Shown here one piece after another: positions 9,711-21,162 of a stretch of DNA of 64,000 nucleotides. How positions within the stretch are numbered: position 1 is the stretch's first letter; the number at the start of each line of letters is the position of its first letter. This DNA is from Candidatus Rifleibacteriota bacterium. Its GTDB lineage: Bacteria > Muiribacteriota > Ozemobacteria > Ozemobacterales > Ozemobacteraceae. The notes beneath the pieces are model-generated. The model made no database searches. It was not told the DNA's origin and was given only the letters and a program-made list of their open reading frames with translations. Where the stretch lies: the NCBI GenBank assembly GCA_012517355.1, contig JAAYVD010000032.1:25544-89543 (forward strand), written 5' to 3'. A program made the translations under genes and the position numbers.

Positions 9711-10103
9711 CTAGCGCTTGGAGAACTGCGGCCGCTTGCGGGCTTTCTTCAGGCCGTATTTCTTGCGTTCCTTCATGCGCGGGTCGCGGGTCAACAACCC
9801 GTTCTTGCGCAGCAGGGAGCGGAACTCCTCGTTGAACTTGACCAGGGCGCGGGCGATGCCGTGCCGGAAGGCTCCGGCCTGGCCGGTGCTGCCGCCGCCG
9901 GCGATGTTGGCGAGGACGTCGAACTTGCCGACGGTCTCGGTGACGGTCAGGGGCTGCAGGATGATCTTGCGGGTCAGCGGGATGGGGAAATACTCGTCGA
10001 AGGGGCGCTGGTTGACGAGGATCTTCCCGTCACCCTTGAGGATGCGGACGCGGGCGGTGCTGGCCTTGCGGCGGCCGGTGCCCCAAAACATGGCTTCTGG
10101 CAT
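9711..10103 (-). CDS. rpsI: 30S ribosomal protein S9
   Basis: The 130-residue sequence is a complete uS9: [16 protein letters not shown] at the start, [19 protein letters not shown] in the middle and the basic C-terminal tail [18 protein letters not shown] that reaches the ribosomal P site. It is the last gene of a minus-strand operon, 17 nt after rplM, the near-universal bacterial order. A strong terminator hairpin follows. Confidence 0.98.
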
Positions 10104-10120
10104 GGATCAGTCTCCTCCTG

Positions 10121-10555
10121 TTACTTGCCCAGTTCCAGGGCTTTCGGCTGCTGGGCGACGTGCGGATGCTCGGCGCCCGGGTACACCTTGAGTTTGCGCA
10201 GGAAGCGCTGCCGCAGCTTGTTGCGGGGCAGCATGCGCTTGACGGCCAGCCAAAGCATGTATTCGGGCTTGTTGCGCTTGAGGTCGCCGTAGGAGACGGA
10301 CCGGATGTGGCCGATGTAGCCGGTGTGCCAGAAGTGGGTCTTGTCGCGTTCCTTCTGGCCGGTCAGCTTGATCTCGCCGGCGTTGATGACGACGACGAAA
10401 TCGCCCATGTCGAAGTTGGGCAGGTAGGTGGGTTTGTGCTTCCCCATCAGGATGTGGGCCACCTGGGAAGCGAGACGCCCGAGGACCTGGTCCTTGGCGT
10501 CCACGAGGTGCCAGTCGCGTTGGATCTGGTCCTCTTTGGGGACGAACGTCTTCAC
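10121..10555 (-). CDS. rplM: 50S ribosomal protein L13
   Basis: The 144-residue protein is a full-length uL13, with WHLVDAKDQVLGRLASQVA at the N-terminus, GDFVVVINAGEIKLTGQK in the core and the AVKRMLPRNKLRQRFLRKLKVY segment near the end. It binds 23S rRNA early in large-subunit assembly. It sits between truA and rpsI on the minus strand, 19 nt after the truA stop, an arrangement seen in many bacteria. Confidence 0.98.
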   Translation of the reverse strand: MKTFVPKEDQIQRDWHLVDAKDQVLGRLASQVAHILMGKHKPTYLPNFDMGDFVVVINAGEIKLTGQKERDKTHFWHTGYIGHIRSVSYGDLKRNKPEYMLWLAVKRMLPRNKLRQRFLRKLKVYPGAEHPHVAQQPKALELGK

Positions 10556-10574
10556 CGAATGTTCCTCCTTTCGG

Positions 10575-11321
10575 TTAGTACATGACCCTCATCAGATACA
10601 GCCCGGCGGCCGGGGCCGGCGAACCCAGGCGGCGGCGGTCCTGATTACGGTACAGTTCCGGGATTTCGTGTGGTTCCATCTTGTGCAGGCCGATCAGCAG
10701 GAGGGCCTTGGCCATGTTGCGGACCATGTTGTGGAGGAACCCCGTTCCGACCACATCGAAGGTGATGACCGCTCCTTCCCGCGCGAGGCGGCTGTCCAGG
10801 ATGGTGCGAACGGGGTTCTCCTTGCCGGCGGGGGATCGGGTGAAGGCCGAGAAGTCGTGTTCCCCCACGAAGCGTGCCGCTCCCTGCTCCATCGCAGCCA
10901 GGTCGAGCGAGCCTTCGACCTGGCAGAAATGCCGTTCGAGGAACGGGCTGCGTTCGGCCACCTCGCGGAAGAGGTAGCGGTAGTGCTTGGCCCTGGCCGA
11001 GAACCGGGGGTGGAACCCCGGGGCGGCCTCTTCGATCCGGCGAATGCGGATGCTGGGAGGGAGAGCCCCATTCAATGCCACGATCAACTTGTCAACCGGG
11101 ATCGGACGATCGGTCTGGACCAGGATCACCTGCCCGAGGGCATGCACTCCCGTGTCGGTCCGCCCGGACCCATGGACGCGCACCTGATGGCCGAGGATCC
11201 TGGCCAGGGCCCGTTCCAGTTCCGCCTGGATGGTCGGGACTCCCGGTTGGATCTGGAAGCCGAAAAAGGCACTTCCGTCGTAGGTAACGGTCATTGTAAT
11301 GCGGCGGGGATCGGTTGTCAA
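10575..11321 (-). CDS. truA: tRNA pseudouridine(38-40) synthase TruA
   Basis: The 248-residue protein modifies uridines in the tRNA anticodon stem-loop. The catalytic Asp lies in GSGRTDTGVHALGQ (Asp56), followed by the family segments FSARAKHYRYLF, GEHDFSAF and VVGTGFLHNMVRNM. Length is normal for the family. I keep the upstream start because residues 1-10 (MTTDPRRITM) match the usual lead into the TVTYDGSAFFGFQ strand. It is the first gene of the truA-rplM-rpsI operon; the 263-nt gap to the divergent cyclase gene must contain both promoters, but I could not pick out convincing boxes there. Confidence 0.96.
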   Translation of the reverse strand: MTTDPRRITMTVTYDGSAFFGFQIQPGVPTIQAELERALARILGHQVRVHGSGRTDTGVHALGQVILVQTDRPIPVDKLIVALNGALPPSIRIRRIEEAAPGFHPRFSARAKHYRYLFREVAERSPFLERHFCQVEGSLDLAAMEQGAARFVGEHDFSAFTRSPAGKENPVRTILDSRLAREGAVITFDVVGTGFLHNMVRNMAKALLLIGLHKMEPHEIPELYRNQDRRRLGSPAPAAGLYLMRVMY

Positions 11322-11584: not shown

Positions 11585-14500
11585 ATGCGCCGTCTCCTGC
11601 TGTCACTCGTTGCCGTCCTGCTGCTCGTGCTGCCCTGGGTCATCCTCGATTCCCTCGATGCCTGGATGATCGAGGAGCGGGCGGGAGCCGACCTGCGGGC
11701 CTGGGAAGGGCGGGCGCGCCAGGTGACCGGGCAGATCCAGGCCTCGCATGCCATCGAGCGGCAGTGCGAGCGGCAGGCCGACCGGTTCCGCGAGCGGCTG
11801 GGCAGCCTGCTGACCCACCTGGGCCGGCGCGGGCTGGCTCCCGAACTGGTGATACGGGCTGCCAGGGAGATCTTTTCCCACGACCGTTCGGCTCCCGCCA
11901 TGTACTTGTTCCGGCCCGGCCCCGACCGGGCAGGGAAATGGCAGGCGGTGAAAGGGAAGGGGCTCGGCACGGTCGCCGCGCCGCTGCTGGGCACCGTGGT
12001 GGGAGCCCTGGTGCGGGGCAGCCGCCAGGAGGCGGTGCCGGCCGAGGCCGGTCGCACCTTCCGGGGCCTGTTCGGCGACCTGTTGACCATCGACCAGCTG
12101 GCGCGGCAGGGCATCGGCCGGGTCTACGCGGCGACCTTCCGCGGGAAGGACGTGTGGCTCTACTGGAACGTGCTGCGGCCTGGACGGAAGCCGGCGGGCG
12201 TGCTTCTGCTGCTGTTTCCCCGGCGCATCGACCTGAGCCCCGAGGAGGAGCTGGGGCGGTTTCTGCGGAACTGGCGGGCCCGGAGCGGGTTCCCCCTCTT
12301 CCTGCGGACCTTCCAAGCCCCAGGGTCCCGCGAACTCCTGGCGCATCCCCGGCTGGCCGCCCTGCCGGCCTTCCGTGGCCTGGCACCCGCCCTGATCCGG
12401 CAGATCCGCGGGTTGCCGCCCGGACGGGCCGGTCGGTTCGGCGACTGGTGGCTGCTTCGGCAGGGGCTGTCGGGCGACCGGCCCTACGACGTCTGCCTGG
12501 TGCGACCCATCCCCGTTCGCGGTCCGACCCTGGCCGGGCGCGGGCGCGCCTGGTATGGGGGGGGGATGGCCCTGGCGTTGACGCTGGGACTGGGTTGGTG
12601 CCTGCGGGCTGGGGCCCTTCCCTCCCCCACCCTGCGCCGCTCGTTCGTCATGCTCCTGTTGCTGCTGGCCGGCCTGCCCCTGTTCGGCTGCCTCGTCTTC
12701 GGGGCGGGGCAGGCGGGCGGCTGGCTGGCCCTGTCCCTGCGGCAGGCCACGGAGGAGGTCGACGCCTTCTACCAGCGCCTGGACGCGGTGGGCGAGCACC
12801 GGAAGGCGCAATACCGCCGGATCGTGGACCGGGACCTGCCCGCCTGGAAGTCCATGGTGCCGGGCGTCAACGGCGGTTCCCACCTGGACCGGCTGGCCGG
12901 GGCCTTCCGGGAGGCGGGGCTGCCCCTGATGGGCATCCTCGTCTTCGACCGGGCGGGGGGCATCCTGTCCCGGCTGTCGGACAGCCTGGCGCCGGCCGCG
13001 GTCCAGTCCCTGATCGACTATTTCCAGGACTGGGCGGTGGGCGGGTTCTCCGAGATTTCCGGACCGGCGGGTGGGCCCGGCTGGCTGCAGTCGCAGCGGA
13101 CCCAGATGTTCCAGCACCTCGCCCGGACCCTGAACCCCGATCGGGGCCTGGCCGCCATGATCATGTGGCAGCTCGGCATGGCGGAGGCCGTCGTCCTCGA
13201 GGACACCCGATTCTACAATCTGCACACCGCCGTGGTCAGGGACGGGACCCTGCAGGCGTTCATCAACATCCTCTGGCGGGGAGATGCCGACTTCCGCGGG
13301 ATCCTGCGGGAAGCCGTGGCCCGGCGCAATGCCGGGAGCCCGGCGCACACCTGTGCCGTGGTGGCGGCGGAACAAGGGGCCCTGGTGCCGGTGGTGCCGC
13401 CTGCCAGCTCGGTGTTCTGGCGCACCCCCGCCGGCCGGGCGATGTGGGAGGTGTTCGAGGGGTTCCGGTTCCGGCGGGCCGCCTTTGCCGGCGTCCGCGG
13501 CGGGTTCCACCTGACCGTCGCCCCGAGCGTGACCGCCCCCGGCCTGTTGTTCGGGGGTGTCGCCCCGCTCGAGCCGTTCCAGGCCGAGGCCCGGCGCCGG
13601 CAGTTCCTGCTCGTGGCCTTGCTTTCCCTGCTGACCGTCGGGGTGGCGGGCACCGGCCTCCTCATCGTCCGGCGGTTCATCGATCCGATCCGGCGTCTGG
13701 AGGAGGCCTTGTGGGCGGTCTGCCACGGAGATCTCGGACAGACCCTCGAGCTGAGCGGGGCCCGCGAATTCGCCGAGGTGTCGGCGACCTTCCAGGACAT
13801 GGTCGACGGCTTGCGGGAGCGCCGCAACCTGGGACGGTTCGTCTCGGGGGCCCTCGCCGGGGGCGGCCTGGCCGGAGGAAGCCTCGCCGGTGGGAGTCTG
13901 GCCGGCGGAAGCCTGGCCGGCGGCGGATTCGGGGGCGACGGGCGGGCGGGAGGTGGCGGTCTGCCCGGGGTCGGCCTCGCCGCGCCGGCGGGCCGTCGCC
14001 ACAGCGTGCGGCGGCGAGGGACCGTCCTGGTGTCGGACATCCGGCGGTTCACGACCTTGTCGGAGAGGCATCCGGTCGACCAGGTCGTGTCGATGCTGAA
14101 CCGGCACCTCGACGCCCTGGCCCGGGAAGTCCACGCCCGGGGCGGGTTCGTCGACAAGTTCATCGGGGACGCCATGGTGGCGGTCTTCTTTGCGGAAGAA
14201 GCGGCGGGGGTGCCGGGGCCTTCGGTTCCCGGCCAGGCCGCCGGGGTGGTGGCCGCCCTGGATGCCGCCGGGCCGTCGCACGTCCGGCGGGCGATGGCGG
14301 CCGCCTGGGCCATGCGGCAGACGGGGCTGGCCATCGTGGCGGAGCGTGAGGCGGCGGGCCAGTTCTCCTACGAATTCGGCATCGGGCTGGCCACCGGGGA
14401 GCTGGTCAGCCTGACCATCGGATTGGCCCTGGAACGTTCGGAGCACCAGGTGTTGGGATTCCCGGTCCAGCGGGCCGAGGTGCTGGAAGGGCTGTCGAAA

Positions 14501-14725
14501 CAGGCCACCCGGACCAGGATCGTCGTCGACCGTTCGGTGGTCAGCGCCTGTCCGGAATTCGCCTTCGCGGCGCTGCCGTTCGTCGAAACCTGGGAGGTGA
14601 CCGGCCCGGCCGATCCCGGGGGGCCGGGGCCGGGGCGGGGCGCTTCGTCCGCGCCGGAACCGGCGGGGCCCGCCGCGCCAGGCCAGGCCTCAGCCCCAGG
14701 GATGCGCGGGGAGGATGACCGATGA
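11585..14725 (+). CDS. Large membrane class III nucleotide cyclase, C1-like half (metal-binding)
   Basis: This 1046-residue protein has an N-terminal membrane span (about 3-21), a long presumed extracytoplasmic region, two spans near 325-342 and 353-375, a second sensor region, a span at about 674-695, a HAMP-like segment (FIDPIRRLEEALWAV), a Gly/Ser/Leu/Ala linker (about 755-790) and a class III cyclase domain (about 805-985). The cyclase has both metal Asp residues, Asp818 in VSDIRRFT and Asp862 in DKFIGDAM, and Lys858. The transition-state Asn and Arg of the motif VNLASR are replaced by Gln962 and Val966 (VQRAEV). This is the pattern of mammalian C1. The start at 11585 is chosen for the immediate signal anchor. 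Its stop overlaps the start of the partner gene (ATGA at 14722-14725). Confidence 0.88.
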   Translation: MRRLLLSLVAVLLLVLPWVILDSLDAWMIEERAGADLRAWEGRARQVTGQIQASHAIERQCERQADRFRERLGSLLTHLGRRGLAPELVIRAAREIFSHDRSAPAMYLFRPGPDRAGKWQAVKGKGLGTVAAPLLGTVVGALVRGSRQEAVPAEAGRTFRGLFGDLLTIDQLARQGIGRVYAATFRGKDVWLYWNVLRPGRKPAGVLLLLFPRRIDLSPEEELGRFLRNWRARSGFPLFLRTFQAPGSRELLAHPRLAALPAFRGLAPALIRQIRGLPPGRAGRFGDWWLLRQGLSGDRPYDVCLVRPIPVRGPTLAGRGRAWYGGGMALALTLGLGWCLRAGALPSPTLRRSFVMLLLLLAGLPLFGCLVFGAGQAGGWLALSLRQATEEVDAFYQRLDAVGEHRKAQYRRIVDRDLPAWKSMVPGVNGGSHLDRLAGAFREAGLPLMGILVFDRAGGILSRLSDSLAPAAVQSLIDYFQDWAVGGFSEISGPAGGPGWLQSQRTQMFQHLARTLNPDRGLAAMIMWQLGMAEAVVLEDTRFYNLHTAVVRDGTLQAFINILWRGDADFRGILREAVARRNAGSPAHTCAVVAAEQGALVPVVPPASSVFWRTPAGRAMWEVFEGFRFRRAAFAGVRGGFHLTVAPSVTAPGLLFGGVAPLEPFQAEARRRQFLLVALLSLLTVGVAGTGLLIVRRFIDPIRRLEEALWAVCHGDLGQTLELSGAREFAEVSATFQDMVDGLRERRNLGRFVSGALAGGGLAGGSLAGGSLAGGSLAGGGFGGDGRAGGGGLPGVGLAAPAGRRHSVRRRGTVLVSDIRRFTTLSERHPVDQVVSMLNRHLDALAREVHARGGFVDKFIGDAMVAVFFAEEAAGVPGPSVPGQAAGVVAALDAAGPSHVRRAMAAAWAMRQTGLAIVAEREAAGQFSYEFGIGLATGELVSLTIGLALERSEHQVLGFPVQRAEVLEGLSKQATRTRIVVDRSVVSACPEFAFAALPFVETWEVTGPADPGGPGPGRGASSAPEPAGPAAPGQASAPGMRGEDDR
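13850..13940 (+). repeat. 15-nt tandem repeat encoding GGSLA units
   Basis: Inside the first cyclase gene, between HAMP and the catalytic domain, GCCGGAGGAAGCCTC-type units repeat and encode LAGG-SLAGG-SLAGG-SLAGG. The array is in frame and would act as a flexible linker whose length can change by slippage. Confidence 0.85.
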
Positions 14726-17700
14726 CCAGGATGCCCGCCCGTGGCTGGCAGGGGTTCCTCACCGGCCTGCTGTTCCTGCTTCCCTTCCTCGTGGTCCATG
14801 TCTCCATGGACCTGACGGAGCAGGAGGAAGCCGCCGAGCGGTTCCGGGAGACCGAACAGGCCAACCTGACCGACCTGGACCGGGTGACGCGGTCCCTGAC
14901 CCCCGCCCATTTCCTCGGCACCGCCCTCAAGCACCTGGAGTTCCGGCTGGCCACCGGGATCCGGGCCCGGCTGGCGGCGGGCCGGCCGCCCTCGCCGGGG
15001 GACCTGCGAACGATGGTGGAATCGGCCATGGACGGCCCCGAAGGCGTGGTGATCCGGCGGTTCGGGGCCGAACTGGTGGTGGTCCGGAGCGACCGGGCGG
15101 GGACGGCCGGCGCGGGGGGCGGCCACCAGGTCGTCTGGCGGGAAGGGGCAGCCCGGGGGCTGCAGGACCTCCCCGCCGAGGCCTTCGACTACCTGCTCGA
15201 ACCCGGGCAGACCGGCCCGGAGGGGGCGGCGCGAGTGGAGGTCGCCTTCCGGCGGCTGATGGGCTTTCCGGTGGTGGTGAACGCGTTCCGGGACCGGTGC
15301 TGGGGGGCCTGCGGGGAGTACACCAACGAGCACGGCACCTGGGGCTTCTTCTGGGAAGAGGTCCCGCTGCCGCCCGGCGCGCCTGACCGGCTGCTGGTGA
15401 CGGCGCGGGCCAGCCTGCTGGGCCTGGGTGAACGGGTCCGGTGGCGGCTGGCGACGCTCCTGTGGGACTCCTGGGACGGGGACGGCCCCTCGGCGGACGG
15501 CCCCCCGGTGGTGCGCGACAGCGGGGTTTCGCGCGGCCCTCCGCGGCGGCAGCGGGGAAGCCCTTCCGACCTGGGGCCGGCCGCCCCCGGGGCGTTGCGT
15601 CAGGCTGGCGCCGGGCGCGGGGCTCCATCCCCGCAAGCGCCACCGACCACCCTCGTGTCGGCCTCGACCGGTGGGGTCCGGCGGGACGGAGCCGCCCTGG
15701 CCATCCTGCCGGGCGGCGGGCAGGGGACGGCCGTCCTGTCGAACACCTGGCGCCGGTCGGAGGCCCTGCGCGGCTGGCGGCGGGGGGACCTGCCGGCCCC
15801 GGGGGCCAGCGCCGTGGTCGGCGGTGGCCACCTGGTCACCCGGCAGGCGGATCCCGACGGCGGGGCGGGTTCCCTCGTCCTCGCCCGGCCGTTGCCGCCG
15901 GGGCGCAGCCCGCTCTTCCGGGCCGTCCGGCTGGCCGCTTCTTTCGTCTACGTGGCCCTGGTGGTGCTCGGGGTCGTCCAGTTGATCCTGTTCGAGCGTC
16001 GCCAGGCCCTTCCCCTGCGGCTGCTGTTCGGCCTGCTCTTTTTGCTGGCGGTCCTGACGCCCCTGACCGGGGTCTACCACCTGGCCTCACGGCAGGTGGG
16101 GCAGACCTTCCGGGAAGACCAGAAATCGGCCCGCGACGCCCTTCGCCGGCGGTTCAAGGAGATCGACGACGGGCAGACCGAGCACTCGGCTGGGGTGATG
16201 AGCATCCTGCAACGGGCCTTGCAGGCCCCCTCCTTCCTCGCGCAGGTGCGGGCGGGCGAGGACGAGTGGCGCCGGACGGGGCGGGGGCGTCGGCTGGGGG
16301 CCCTGTTGCAGGGGTTCTTCCGGCGGATCCGGAATCCCGACCATCCCATCCACCGGCTGCCCGACGGCACCCTGGTTCCCCTTTCCCGGGTGCTCGGGTT
16401 CTTCCTGGTGGGGCCCGACCGGCTCGCCGAATTCCAGAACAACGAACGGATCCCCACGTCCGTCGATATCCGGAAGTTCTTCGAGGTGATCGGCCAGCGG
16501 GCCCTCGAGGTCCGCAACCCGGCCCTGCGGCGGGAGGGCCCTGCCCGACCGCCCGGCCGGGTCGACCGGGCGGCGATGCTCCTGGAATACGGCAGCCAGA
16601 TGCTGATCAACCTGGCCGGTTACGAGGCGTTCCTCGACCTGGTCTACAAGCCGTCCAGCCTGGTGGCGGCGCGGGTCGGGGCCGTCCGGCAGACCTTCTT
16701 CCAGACGACGCTGCGGATCGACGGGGTCGCGCGGTTCGTGGCGCTGCTGGTCTGGCTGGAGATGGACCAGGACCACCCCTACCTGTTGATGGCGATGCAG
16801 AGCCCGTTGCGGCCGGGGGAACCGGTGGTCTACCCCGTCGACCGCATGAACCGCACCTTCCTCGCCGCCCCCCCCGACCTGCCCGTGCCGATCCGGGAGG
16901 CTGCCTTCCAGGCTCTGGAGACCGGCCTTCCGGTCAGCTCGTTCGACCGGCGGACCGGGCTGCTGGTGGAAGCCGCCCCCTGCCGGAACCTGAACCGGCA
17001 CGTGCTGGTCGGCTCGCAGCCGATCGCCCCGCTGGTGGAGAGGATGACGGCGGGGCGCCGGCGGTTCTGGCTGGGCCTGGCGGTGGTGGTCGGCCTGGCG
17101 GTCCTGAGCGCGGCGGGAGGGGCGGCCGTGTTCCTGTTGCCCCTGCAGGCCATCGTCCGGGCCTTCCGGGCGGTCAGGGAGGGGCGGTTCGAAACCCGGC
17201 TCGAGCTGCGGGAACGGGACGAGTTCGGGTCGGTGGCGGAGGCATTCAACGCCCTGGCCCAGGGCCTGCAGGAAGGGCGGCTGTTGGGGCGGTTCGTCTC
17301 GGAACCGGTGCGCCAGGCGGCCCGCGCCGGCAACCTGGAGATGCTGGCGGGGGCGGCGCGGGAGATCGAGACGACCGTGGTCTTCGCGGGGCTGGGCGGG
17401 TTCGAGGAGGTCCGGCGGGTGGCGCCCGTCGACGAGCTGGCGGCCATCCTGGAGGACCACCTGGAGATCGCCAGCCGCGCGGCCGCCCGGGCGGGCGGCG
17501 AGATCGACAAGCTGTTCGGGGAGAAGATCATGGTGGTGTTCGACCATCAGCGGTTCGACCACCCGGCGCAGGCGGCGCGCGCGGCCCTGGCCTTTGCCCG
17601 CGAGGTGCGCGGCGCGTTCGGGGGTCACGGGCGGCTGCGGCAGCTGAGCGCCAAGATCGGCATCAACAGCGGGCCGGCCCTGCTGGGCTTCCTCGGCTCG

Positions 17701-17931
17701 CCGGCGGTGCGGCTGGACCACACCGTCATCGGCGACACCGTCAACCTGGCCTCGCGCCTGGCCAGCCTCGCCCACACCCTGCCCGGCGGGCAGATCGTGG
17801 TGGCCGGCCAGACCCTGGCCCTGGCCGGCGAGACCGGGCAGCCCCGGCCGCTCGCCGTGCGGCAGGTGCGGGGCAAGACCCGGCAGGTCGAGGTTTTCCA
17901 ACTTGATGGCCGATCGGGAGCGGCCGGCTGA
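14722..17931 (+). CDS. Large membrane class III nucleotide cyclase, C2-like half (transition-state residues)
   Basis: This 1069-residue paralogue of the upstream protein has the same layout: N-terminal span (about 11-30), extracytoplasmic region, spans at about 404-423 and 433-455, second sensor region, span at about 782-808, HAMP-like segment (IVRAFRAVREGRFETRLEL) and cyclase domain (about 877-1065). Its cyclase keeps Asn1008 and Arg1012 in GDTVNLASRL, Thr1001 and Lys930, but the two metal Asp positions are Gly890 (FAGLGGFEE) and Glu934 (DKLFGEKIM). The spacing of both altered positions is 44 residues, the same as for the intact pair in its partner. The ATGA overlap with the first gene implies translational coupling and matched dosage. 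A Gly/Pro/Arg-rich insertion of about 75 residues (near 255-330) includes a copy of a dispersed element. Confidence 0.88.
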   Translation: MTRMPARGWQGFLTGLLFLLPFLVVHVSMDLTEQEEAAERFRETEQANLTDLDRVTRSLTPAHFLGTALKHLEFRLATGIRARLAAGRPPSPGDLRTMVESAMDGPEGVVIRRFGAELVVVRSDRAGTAGAGGGHQVVWREGAARGLQDLPAEAFDYLLEPGQTGPEGAARVEVAFRRLMGFPVVVNAFRDRCWGACGEYTNEHGTWGFFWEEVPLPPGAPDRLLVTARASLLGLGERVRWRLATLLWDSWDGDGPSADGPPVVRDSGVSRGPPRRQRGSPSDLGPAAPGALRQAGAGRGAPSPQAPPTTLVSASTGGVRRDGAALAILPGGGQGTAVLSNTWRRSEALRGWRRGDLPAPGASAVVGGGHLVTRQADPDGGAGSLVLARPLPPGRSPLFRAVRLAASFVYVALVVLGVVQLILFERRQALPLRLLFGLLFLLAVLTPLTGVYHLASRQVGQTFREDQKSARDALRRRFKEIDDGQTEHSAGVMSILQRALQAPSFLAQVRAGEDEWRRTGRGRRLGALLQGFFRRIRNPDHPIHRLPDGTLVPLSRVLGFFLVGPDRLAEFQNNERIPTSVDIRKFFEVIGQRALEVRNPALRREGPARPPGRVDRAAMLLEYGSQMLINLAGYEAFLDLVYKPSSLVAARVGAVRQTFFQTTLRIDGVARFVALLVWLEMDQDHPYLLMAMQSPLRPGEPVVYPVDRMNRTFLAAPPDLPVPIREAAFQALETGLPVSSFDRRTGLLVEAAPCRNLNRHVLVGSQPIAPLVERMTAGRRRFWLGLAVVVGLAVLSAAGGAAVFLLPLQAIVRAFRAVREGRFETRLELRERDEFGSVAEAFNALAQGLQEGRLLGRFVSEPVRQAARAGNLEMLAGAAREIETTVVFAGLGGFEEVRRVAPVDELAAILEDHLEIASRAAARAGGEIDKLFGEKIMVVFDHQRFDHPAQAARAALAFAREVRGAFGGHGRLRQLSAKIGINSGPALLGFLGSPAVRLDHTVIGDTVNLASRLASLAHTLPGGQIVVAGQTLALAGETGQPRPLAVRQVRGKTRQVEVFQLDGRSGAAG
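15502..15550 (+). repeat. Copy of ~49-nt dispersed GC-rich element, in-frame inside the second cyclase gene
   Basis: Ungapped comparison with the intergenic copy at 28222-28270 gives about 38 identities in 49 positions, including TTTCGCGC and CGGCGGC, and similarity continues into GGGGAAG just after. The copy encodes a Gly/Arg/Pro-rich low-complexity stretch in a region otherwise conserved in architecture with the upstream paralogue. Confidence 0.6.
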
Positions 17932-18552: not shown

Positions 18553-21162
18553 CTAGCGGGGACGTCGTTCGGCGAAGAAGGCGCGGGCTTCCTCCAGGAG
18601 GCGGGCCAGCGGCCCCCGCACCAGGCGGGCCGGCGGCAGCGACTCGAGGAAGTAGGCGCCGTAGGGCTTGGTGAGGAGGCGGCGGTCGAGGATCCAGACG
18701 GTGCCGTGGTCCCCCTTGCCGCGGATGAGCCGGCCGAAGCCCTGCTTGAGCTTGATGGCGGCCAATGGCAGCTGGTATTCCTGGAACGGGTTGCGCCCCT
18801 CCTCTTCGAGGCGTTCCTGGCGGGCGGCCAGCACGGGGTCGTCGGGAACGGCGAACGGGAGCTTGATGATGACCAGGTTGCGCAGGGCCTGGCCGGGGAC
18901 GTCGATGCCTTCCCAGAAACTGTCGGTGGCGAACAGCACGCCGTTGCCGTCCTCGCGGAACCTTTCCAGGAGGTGGTGCCGCTCCATCTCCCCCTGCCGG
19001 AAGCAGGCCAGGCCCGCGGCGGTGAGGCGGTCGGCGAGGGCGTTCGACAGGCCGTGCACCTGGGCGTGGCTGGTGCAGAGGACGAGGGTGCCGCCCCGCG
19101 AGGTCTGCACGATTTCGAAGAGCGGGTCGTGGAGGGCGGCCAGGAAGTCGGAGCGGGTCGGTTCGGGCAGGTCGCTGGGCACGAACAGGCGCGCCTGAAC
19201 CTGGTAGTCGAAGGGCGAAGGGAAGCGGCCGGTCAGGGGTTCGGGGGTGATCTCGTCGGAATCGAGGCCCAGCCGGGACTTGACGAAATCGAAGGTGCGC
19301 CGGGTCGACAGGGTGCCCGAGACCAGCACCACGCTGCGGATCGGCTGGAAGACCGAGTGGACCATCGCCTCGACGACCGAGACGGGGGCGGAATGGACGG
19401 CGGGATAGCGGGACCGTCCCCTGACCCCGACCGCGAAGAAATGCACATACTGGGCGCGTTCGGCCGACTCCTCGTCGAAGACCAGCTTCAGTCCGTCGCG
19501 CGCCTCGCCGAACCGGGCGACGAGGCTGCCGACCTCGGACAGGGGCACCTCGAACGCCTTGCGGCCGGCGTCGTCCTCCTCGAGCCCGGCGGCGACCCGG
19601 CGCTGCAGACGGCGGAGGGCGCGGGTGAACTCCTGCAACTGCTCGTCGAGCTTGCCCGCGGCGATCTTCAGCCGGGCGAACGGTTCCGACCGTTCGACGG
19701 CGGGGCCGAGGCGGAGCCGCTGCTCGCCCGGGTGCGGCTCGCGCGGCCCGATGACGAGGTCGGCGACCTGGTCGAACAGGTCGTTGGCGAACCCGCCGAG
19801 ATCCTGGCGGCGGGGCATGATCTCGTCGCGCAGCAGTTTCAGGATGCCGGCCCGCTCCTGGGCGGAATACGGCCCGAGGCCGGCTTCGAGCCTGGCCTCC
19901 AGGACGGCGAGGACCCCCTTCTCGCGCCGGCCCCGGCGCTGGTGCAGGCGGCCGAGCAGCCGCTGGAAGCCGAGGCCGGTGGTGCGGAAGCCGAAATGGC
20001 GGGTGGCAGTGTCTTCGAGGTTGTGGGCCTCATCGAGGACGGCGGCCTTGTATCCGGGGATGATCGCGGTCTGCTCGTATTCCTGCATGGCGGCGCGCAG
20101 CGCGAGGTCGGTGAACAGCAGGTGGTGGTTGACCACGAGCAGGTCGGCCTCGGCGGCCTTGCGGCGGGCGCTGTAGAAGAAGCAGGGATTGTAATGGGCG
20201 CACTTGACGCCGATGCAGGAATCCTTTTCCGAGTTCAGTTTTTCCCACAGCTTCTCGTCGGGGACCCAGTTCAGGTCGGCCAGCGAGCCGTCGGTGGTCT
20301 TGGCGGCCCAGGCCTGCAGGCGTCCGAACTGCTCGAGTTCGTCGAGGTCGAGCAGGACGTCGCCCTCGGGGGCGCCGACGATCTCCTCGAGGCGACGCTG
20401 GCAGAGGTAGTTGGCGCGACCCTTGACGAGGCAGAAGGCGAAGGGAAAGGGCAGCGCCTTCTGCAGGAAGGGCAGGTCCTTCTGGCAGAGCTGCTGTTGC
20501 AGGTTGATGGTGTTGGTCGAGACGACGACGCGGCACTTGTTCTGGCGGGCGAAGAAGAGGGCCGGCACCAGGTAGGCCAGGCTTTTGCCGACGCCGGTCT
20601 CCCCTTCCAGGATGGCGTGGCAGGGGGTGTTGAAGGCGTCGATGACCGCTTCGAGCAGGCCCATCTGGCCCGGCCGCGCCTCGAACTTCGGCAGCAGGCG
20701 GCTGATCGGGCCGTCCCCGGCGAACAGGGCGCCGATGGCGTGGGCGTCGAGGGGCTCGACAATCTCCTCGCGGAAGGGTTCCACCACGACGTAGGCCCGC
20801 CGGCAGGCGTTGTCGTGGATGGCAAACCCGATGCCCGAAGATCCGCACAGCGAAGCCACCTGCAGGTCGGCGTCAGAAGGAGACAGCAGGCCGGTCGGGT
20901 GGTTGTGCAGCAGGATGTCGCCCGGCCGGAGTCCGCGCAGGATGGCCGGGGCCCGGTCGGCCGCGCCGCGGGCCAGGATGCGCAGGTCCCCCCACCGCCC
21001 GCCTTCCTGGACGGTGGCCGCCGACAGGACCTCGGCGCCGCCGGCCGCCTCGATCTCGGCGGCCAGAAAGCGTTTCTCCTCGGCGACCAAAGGGAACCGG
21101 CCCCCCGGCGGGGAGGGGTCGGCCTCGCCGGAGGATGCGTCGATACGCGGTTTCCTGGCCAT
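18553..21162 (-). CDS. DinG/XPD-type iron-sulfur helicase with N-terminal JAB/RadC-like domain
   Basis: The 869-residue protein is a two-part fusion. Residues about 40-125 form a JAB (JAMM) metalloprotease-like domain with LLHNHPTGLLSPSDADL, in which His86, His88, Ser96 and Asp99 fit the HxH-x7-SxxD motif. The rest is a superfamily 2 helicase of the DinG/XPD group: Walker A EGETGVGKS (186-194), four Cys residues for a 4Fe-4S cluster (one in GRANYLC, then DSC, VKC and NPC), DEAH in AVLDEAHNLED, VLVSGTLSTRR, and motif VI in QGFGRLIRG. Such helicases unwind forked DNA or R-loops during repair. Whether the JAB part is an active peptidase or a RadC-like structural module cannot be told. Confidence 0.87.
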   Translation of the reverse strand: MARKPRIDASSGEADPSPPGGRFPLVAEEKRFLAAEIEAAGGAEVLSAATVQEGGRWGDLRILARGAADRAPAILRGLRPGDILLHNHPTGLLSPSDADLQVASLCGSSGIGFAIHDNACRRAYVVVEPFREEIVEPLDAHAIGALFAGDGPISRLLPKFEARPGQMGLLEAVIDAFNTPCHAILEGETGVGKSLAYLVPALFFARQNKCRVVVSTNTINLQQQLCQKDLPFLQKALPFPFAFCLVKGRANYLCQRRLEEIVGAPEGDVLLDLDELEQFGRLQAWAAKTTDGSLADLNWVPDEKLWEKLNSEKDSCIGVKCAHYNPCFFYSARRKAAEADLLVVNHHLLFTDLALRAAMQEYEQTAIIPGYKAAVLDEAHNLEDTATRHFGFRTTGLGFQRLLGRLHQRRGRREKGVLAVLEARLEAGLGPYSAQERAGILKLLRDEIMPRRQDLGGFANDLFDQVADLVIGPREPHPGEQRLRLGPAVERSEPFARLKIAAGKLDEQLQEFTRALRRLQRRVAAGLEEDDAGRKAFEVPLSEVGSLVARFGEARDGLKLVFDEESAERAQYVHFFAVGVRGRSRYPAVHSAPVSVVEAMVHSVFQPIRSVVLVSGTLSTRRTFDFVKSRLGLDSDEITPEPLTGRFPSPFDYQVQARLFVPSDLPEPTRSDFLAALHDPLFEIVQTSRGGTLVLCTSHAQVHGLSNALADRLTAAGLACFRQGEMERHHLLERFREDGNGVLFATDSFWEGIDVPGQALRNLVIIKLPFAVPDDPVLAARQERLEEEGRNPFQEYQLPLAAIKLKQGFGRLIRGKGDHGTVWILDRRLLTKPYGAYFLESLPPARLVRGPLARLLEEARAFFAERRPR

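Follow-up and report, generated by a model that had tools for sequence, protein, structure and literature searches.

Two overlapping genes very likely encode the halves of one cyclase

Can two genes that each encode a cyclase with a broken active site supply one working enzyme between them? The question is raised by genes A (11585–14725, 1046 residues) and B (14722–17931, 1069 residues) on the plus strand of the window, that is, the whole 64,000-nucleotide stretch of contig JAAYVD010000032.1 from a Candidatus Rifleibacteriota bacterium that we analyzed. Both encode membrane proteins, A ending in a metal-binding, C1-like half-cyclase and B in a C2-like half-cyclase carrying Lys, Thr, Asn and Arg. 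As judged from their residues, A and B are very likely complementary, membrane-bound class III half-cyclases that function only when joined as an A:B heterodimer sharing a single site, resembling the C1/C2 pair of mammalian adenylyl cyclases (ACs). An obligate heterodimer had been put forward in a preliminary description of this locus; profile comparisons, related genomes and the model of a fused relative, P0030, argue for it, with the amendment that we find not one pair but a family of 28 loci, 12 of them fused.

The cyclase domain of A (residues 806–1000, 14000–14584; all features lie on the plus strand) carries the metal-binding residues Asp818 (14036–14038) and Asp862 (14168–14170), and has Gln962 (14468–14470) and Val966 (14480–14482) at the positions of the transition-state Asn and Arg. 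Its translation also contains Lys858 and Gln955. The domain of B (residues 880–1062, 17359–17907) has Gly890 (17389–17391) and Glu934 (17521–17523) at the first and second metal positions. It supplies Lys930 (17509–17511), which we take to be the base-recognizing lysine, Thr1001 (17722–17724), presumably a class IIIb-type base residue, and the transition-state residues Asn1008 (17743–17745) and Arg1012 (17755–17757). In both translations the two metal positions are 44 residues apart. The residues that the preliminary description named, the spacing and the ATGA in which the stop of A overlaps the start of B (14722–14725) are all as given there. In a profile alignment, the six catalytic positions read DDKQQV in A and GEKTNR in B, such that neither chain has all six residues, as a homodimer would require, and only A and B combined would provide a full set for the dimer interface. 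With the metal Asp pair in A, Lys, Asn and Arg in B, and no second complete site, the division is that of the mammalian transmembrane enzymes. Membership of class III is indicated by PF00211 (Guanylate_cyc) scores of 23.4 bits for A (residues 813–987) and 43.3 bits for B (883–1051), against a Pfam cut-off of 21.9.

Comparison with solved cyclases gave each half its own counterpart. The metal-half profile matched C1 chains of the 1azs_A type and no separate C2 chain, its best stretches being 41–200 of soluble AC and 411–544 of AC8. The Asn/Arg profile matched C2 chains of the 1azs_B type, with no separate C1 chain among the best 60 of 65 matches, and aligned best to soluble AC 288–418 and AC8 983–1126. 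For human soluble guanylyl cyclase, the A profile scored the alpha above the beta subunit and the B profile beta above alpha. The top solved matches of both profiles were bacterial cyclases, that of the metal half being the guanylyl cyclase Cya2 (2w01). By these profiles A is assigned as C1-like and B as C2-like, in agreement with the analogy drawn in the preliminary description.

The split recurs within the genome

The genome that the window comes from is 7.11 Mb long and 96% complete. With an E limit of 10 it yielded 91 PF00211 matches, of which 89 lie above the cut-off (and as many at E up to 0.01), as compared to 44 and 61 in two genomes of the same family and 20–25 in six genomes of other families (part of this wider survey was made at E up to 1e-5). 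We selected adjacent cyclase domains by their coordinates in the Pfam listings and read the six catalytic positions in these, and in further solo domains, by profile alignment. A set was called complementary when one half had both metal Asp without the combination of Asn and Arg, and its neighbor had Lys, Thr, Asn and Arg. Adjacent domains occurred at 29 loci, and 28 of these, 27 pairs and the triple L036, were complementary. Both Asp were invariant in the 29 metal halves, as were Lys, Thr, Asn and Arg in the 28 Asn/Arg halves. The first Asp was missing from the Asn/Arg halves, L046 being the doubtful case, where the first metal position is unaligned and an Asp lies one residue out of register. 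At 12 of the 28 loci the halves are fused in one open frame of about 1600–2700 codons, always with the metal half first. The remaining locus, L055, was rejected as a half/half set, consisting of an intact cyclase beside a degenerate domain of 245 residues. Solo domains mostly read D-D-K-x-N-R (24 of 28 rows).

In L036 (647–10526), the order is metal, metal, Asn/Arg. L062 (1330–3756) is an orphan Asn/Arg-type half reading GDKTNR, with a single-Cache sensor, a HAMP domain and C-terminal HEAT repeats; the PF00211 listing of this genome holds no other cyclase match on its contig. An intact solo HAMP-cyclase, L007, is also present and is possibly a relic that predates the split. The genome further has 24 matches to cyclic nucleotide (cNMP)-binding domains.

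Complementary pairs in related genomes and the protein database

PF00211 was surveyed in eight further genomes of the phylum, and adjacent same-strand sets were taken from the listings. Among the matches listed, which make the pair totals of G010, G022, G003 and G035 at-least values, complementary sets accounted for 18 of 18 in G022, 10 of 10 in G010, two of three in G035, two of two in G032 and one of one in G001. Over all nine genomes, 61 of the 63 adjacent sets were complementary, spread over families f1, f2 and f7, whereas no receptor-type pair was found among the matches listed for G003, G037 and G030. Thus, the split suspected from one locus recurs in related genomes. Throughout the 61 sets, the first Asp is absent from the Asn/Arg half, except in L103, where it is present, and perhaps L046. 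Two-gene pairs were found in both gene orders. L132 was discarded as a half/half set, both its domains being intact. The loci L136, L137, L138, L139 and L140 were kept outside the 63; L136 and L140, both close to contig ends, are lone Asn/Arg halves. L141 and L142 each amount to a single domain, and L143 to a weak one. The triple L133 has the order metal, Asn/Arg, metal. L135 (G001, f2) is a short two-gene pair in which dCache_1 immediately precedes each cyclase and HAMP is absent from the Pfam list, a simpler layout that is perhaps nearer the ancestor.

With the fused protein P0030 as query, the 39 genomes of the phylum included 22 with matches reaching E 1e-40, and 21 of the 22 belong to the window's family. 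The protein database was searched with a fused protein, scoring the 7982 candidates that had the most words in common with it, and this gave 59 matches. Of these, 35 contain HAMP plus two cyclase domains (P0001–P0034 and P0036, some of them from the window's own genome); where named, they bear the name Candidatus Ozemobacter sibiricus, Ozemobacteraceae or Candidatus Riflebacteria, or just 'class 3 adenylate cyclase'. All 35 were complementary with the metal half first: the first half has both Asp and lacks the Asn and Arg combination, and the second has Lys, Thr, Asn and Arg without the first Asp. Two-cyclase proteins lacking complementarity, such as P0035, were matched as well. P0037, P0041 and P0045 have a single cyclase domain plus PF02687 and PF12704, presumably ABC-transporter permease families, in their Pfam lists. 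A and B themselves each matched two database proteins, the query included, and a contig scan with B found two relatives, each in a two-gene pair split alike.

Both halves appear to be retained and inherited together

The orthologous pair L131, from a genome of the same genus (G016), is 50% identical to A and 51% to B. Identity amounts to 61% (of aligned residues) and 79% in the cyclase domains of A and B, respectively, and to 41–55% in the sensor regions. Its six positions read DDKQRV and GEKTNR, the sole change relative to the window being at Gln962. Because the residue sets are kept in a pair of only about 50% identity, selection appears to be maintaining both of the broken halves.

Trees were built without the six catalytic columns from 93 metal halves, selected by their Asp pair, and 95 Asn/Arg halves, selected by Lys, Thr, Asn and Arg, so that the invariance of these residues is circular in this set. 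In FastTree, the metal halves formed one group, joined by the intact solo L007. A quick IQ-TREE run on 114 rows grouped 37 Riflebacteria metal halves with an SH-like approximate likelihood-ratio support (SH-aLRT) of 94, leaving the position of L007 unsettled. Of the Asn/Arg halves, 82 fell into one group and 13 outside it (FastTree), and a single origin of all of them is neither shown nor excluded. In FastTree, domains of tandem proteins resembling soluble AC lay beside the solos, whereas IQ-TREE placed the second domains of these proteins close to the Asn/Arg halves.

The distances among metal halves correlated with those among their partners, both for 92 pairs (r = 0.79) and for the 28 own-genome pairs (r = 0.715), values reached by none of 5000 permutations in either case; P0040, P0049, P0054, L055 and L061, which lie outside the metal-half clade, had been dropped. 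When restricted to the 12 own-genome pairs that are fused, the test gave 36 permutations out of 5000 that reached the observed correlation. Moreover, one clade of A and one clade of B consist of the same 11 loci. The correlated distances indicate that the pairs duplicated as units. In the trees of both halves, the two-gene locus L044 stands amid fused pairs, and the fused L032 and L051 stand with the two-gene L041; therefore, fusion or fission occurred more than once.

Proposed mechanism and points against it

Based on these data, we propose that the composite site binds its metals through A, while B contributes Lys930, Thr1001, Asn1008 and Arg1012, and that it would make cyclic AMP (cAMP), the product suggested by its residues, with Lys and Thr pointing to ATP as the substrate. 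The extracytoplasmic receptor region of each half would act via its own HAMP domain. Each half joins a receptor with few hydrophobic segments to a HAMP domain, so that two receptor chains would drive one site and the output would depend on two different receptors simultaneously. The window pair would thus be the two-gene form of a system that fused relatives carry as one C1-C2 chain. Concerning the other pocket, Asp or Glu occupies the second metal position in 84 of 95 Asn/Arg halves, and Lys or Arg the Lys position in 81 of 93 metal halves, a hint, no more, that a second pocket is retained in the pairs. A regulatory use of this pocket, as the preliminary description suggested, is no more than possible. 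Effectors may be among the 24 cNMP-binding domain matches.

Several observations weigh against an obligate one-site heterodimer. Unpaired halves occur: the preliminary description had expected neither half without the other, and this holds for most loci, with rare exceptions in the orphan L062 and the extra metal halves of L036 and L133. Among the 93 metal halves, Asn is kept in four and Arg in nine, both together in none, and the Asn/Arg half of L103 retains the first Asp, with L046 doubtful at that position; hence a second site may have left traces in some relatives. As to the product, cAMP is a prediction from residues only. Finally, the structure model is that of the fused relative P0030 and not of A:B, with a predicted template modelling score (pTM) of 0.61 and with 19–55% identity between P0030 and its 46 aligned sequences. 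This AlphaFold2 model aligns to mammalian C1-C2, including AC9. In whole-chain Foldseek comparisons with AC chains, the query TM score was 0.31–0.36 at a root-mean-square deviation of about 28–34 Å, because the membrane parts differ.

Alternative explanations

We considered that A and B may be catalytically dead pseudo-cyclases that bind nucleotides as switches or regulate other enzymes. This is very unlikely, as decay would not leave exactly one residue set per partner in 61 of 63 sets, and the same sets are preserved in the L131 ortholog pair. It is even harder to credit that a homodimer of one half is the active form, with the other half as accessory subunit. Class III cyclases sometimes tolerate single-residue losses, and A has both metal Asp and Lys858; yet A is without Asn, Arg and Thr, B is without the first metal Asp, and the split is identical in both gene orders.

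The presence of 29 metal and 28 Asn/Arg halves within one genome, together with the extra metal halves of L036 and L133 and the orphan L062, would also fit promiscuous pairing, in which any A joins any B and the 28 loci are cross-wired with one another instead of forming fixed pairs. We regard this as doubtful in view of the mirrored partner trees, the coinciding 11-locus subclades and the 12 fused own-genome pairs, bearing in mind that joint duplication alone can mirror trees, such that mirrored trees do not establish exclusive binding. With respect to the product, another cyclic nucleotide such as cyclic GMP (cGMP) is suggested by the rank of Cya2 at the top of the solved matches of the metal half. 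It is nevertheless an unlikely product, given that Lys plus Thr is the pattern of class IIIb adenylyl cyclases; the 24 cNMP-binding domain matches, for their part, cannot tell cAMP from cGMP.

Comparison with known cyclases

The proposed one-site A:B heterodimer resembles the mammalian transmembrane ACs in design. In both, one half gives two metal Asp and the other Lys, Asn and Arg; the fused bacterial relatives are likewise one chain in C1-C2 order, and the predicted C1/C2 arrangement of P0030 aligns with AC9. The window pair differs in being encoded by two genes, whereas the mammalian enzymes, the 12 fused own-genome relatives and the 35 database proteins have both halves in one polypeptide, C1 first. 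Furthermore, the mammalian enzymes have two bundles of six transmembrane segments, in contrast to the few segments, extracytoplasmic regions and HAMP domains seen here by hydropathy. Class IIIa enzymes have Asp at the base-recognizing position of the second half, a position held by Thr in all 28 own-genome Asn/Arg halves, and the top solved sequence matches of the window pair are bacterial. For an origin independent of the mammalian enzymes we rely on Thr, on the sensors and on the solved cyclases that match best, as the trees contain no mammalian sequence. On balance, we think it somewhat more probable than not that Riflebacteria independently invented a mammalian-type transmembrane AC: an obligate C1/C2-like (pseudo)heterodimer at 28 loci of one genome, fused more than once, which would act as a two-receptor coincidence detector and use its dead site, where B mostly retains an acidic and A a basic residue, as a regulatory pocket.

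Soluble guanylyl cyclase alpha/beta also shares one site between two gene products, but the pair described here has no haem-NO domain by Pfam, has membrane receptors with HAMP, and carries Lys and Thr as base residues in place of guanylate-selecting ones. Soluble AC (ADCY10), with tandem cyclases followed by an ATPase region and no membrane anchor, differs from A and B, which have a membrane receptor and HAMP in place of the AAA ATPase. Its bacterial counterparts are the complementary soluble two-cyclase AAA proteins P0040, P0048, P0049 and P0054 and, in G030, L137, a complementary AAA protein of the soluble type whose two cyclase domains lie about 80 residues apart. The metal halves of P0040, P0049 and P0054 fall apart from the receptor-type metal halves in the trees. 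L138 and L139 are similar to L137, with one domain each among the matches listed. The tandem class III cyclase-like ATP-binding protein of Pseudomonas (6yii), compared by name only, differs in being a transcriptional regulator according to its PDB name.

With homodimeric bacterial class III cyclases, the window pair shares the catalytic domain and the HAMP-cyclase layout also seen in the intact L007; it differs in dividing the residue sets between chains. The homodimers have all residues per chain and two equivalent sites, as given in PMC9552081, and PMC4821796 states that bacterial ACs need homodimerization; PMC9433096 treats Rv1625c. Among the papers listed by literature searches, no title or abstract opening described such bacterial pairs, which leaves their absence unproven as the searches covered few subscription journals. 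Since split pairs, fused pairs and intact cyclases coexist in one genome, the path by which a homodimer turned into a heterodimer and then a fused protein can be tested directly, as can the benefit of two receptors per active site. If our proposal is true, these pairs offer bacterial models for the receptor switching of an asymmetric cyclase and for the role of a dead second pocket.

Domain layout and genomic surroundings

Over the Pfam cut-offs, A and B contain HAMP and Guanylate_cyc alone, with HAMP at residues 693–745 of A (13661–13819) and 805–851 of B (17134–17274); an NCBIfam scan gave only weak matches in the HAMP regions, far under the cut-offs. Hydropathy points to three strong segments in A and four in B, with large regions and HAMP between them. 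The preliminary description had assigned an extracytoplasmic sensor to each protein. Hydropathy, however, gives two large extramembrane regions per half and not one, and the second region of B (residues ~458–775, 16093–17046) is predicted to have a double-Cache-like sensor fold. Between HAMP and cyclase, A has a linker with a Gly-rich tandem repeat (13852–13926); of the 55 residues in this linker, only 19 can be aligned with the L131 ortholog, the greater part being unalignable. The flanks (9711–11321 and 18553–21162) encode ribosomal protein S9, a tRNA pseudouridine synthase and a DEAD-type helicase on the opposite strand, so the cyclase pair looks like a two-gene unit of its own.
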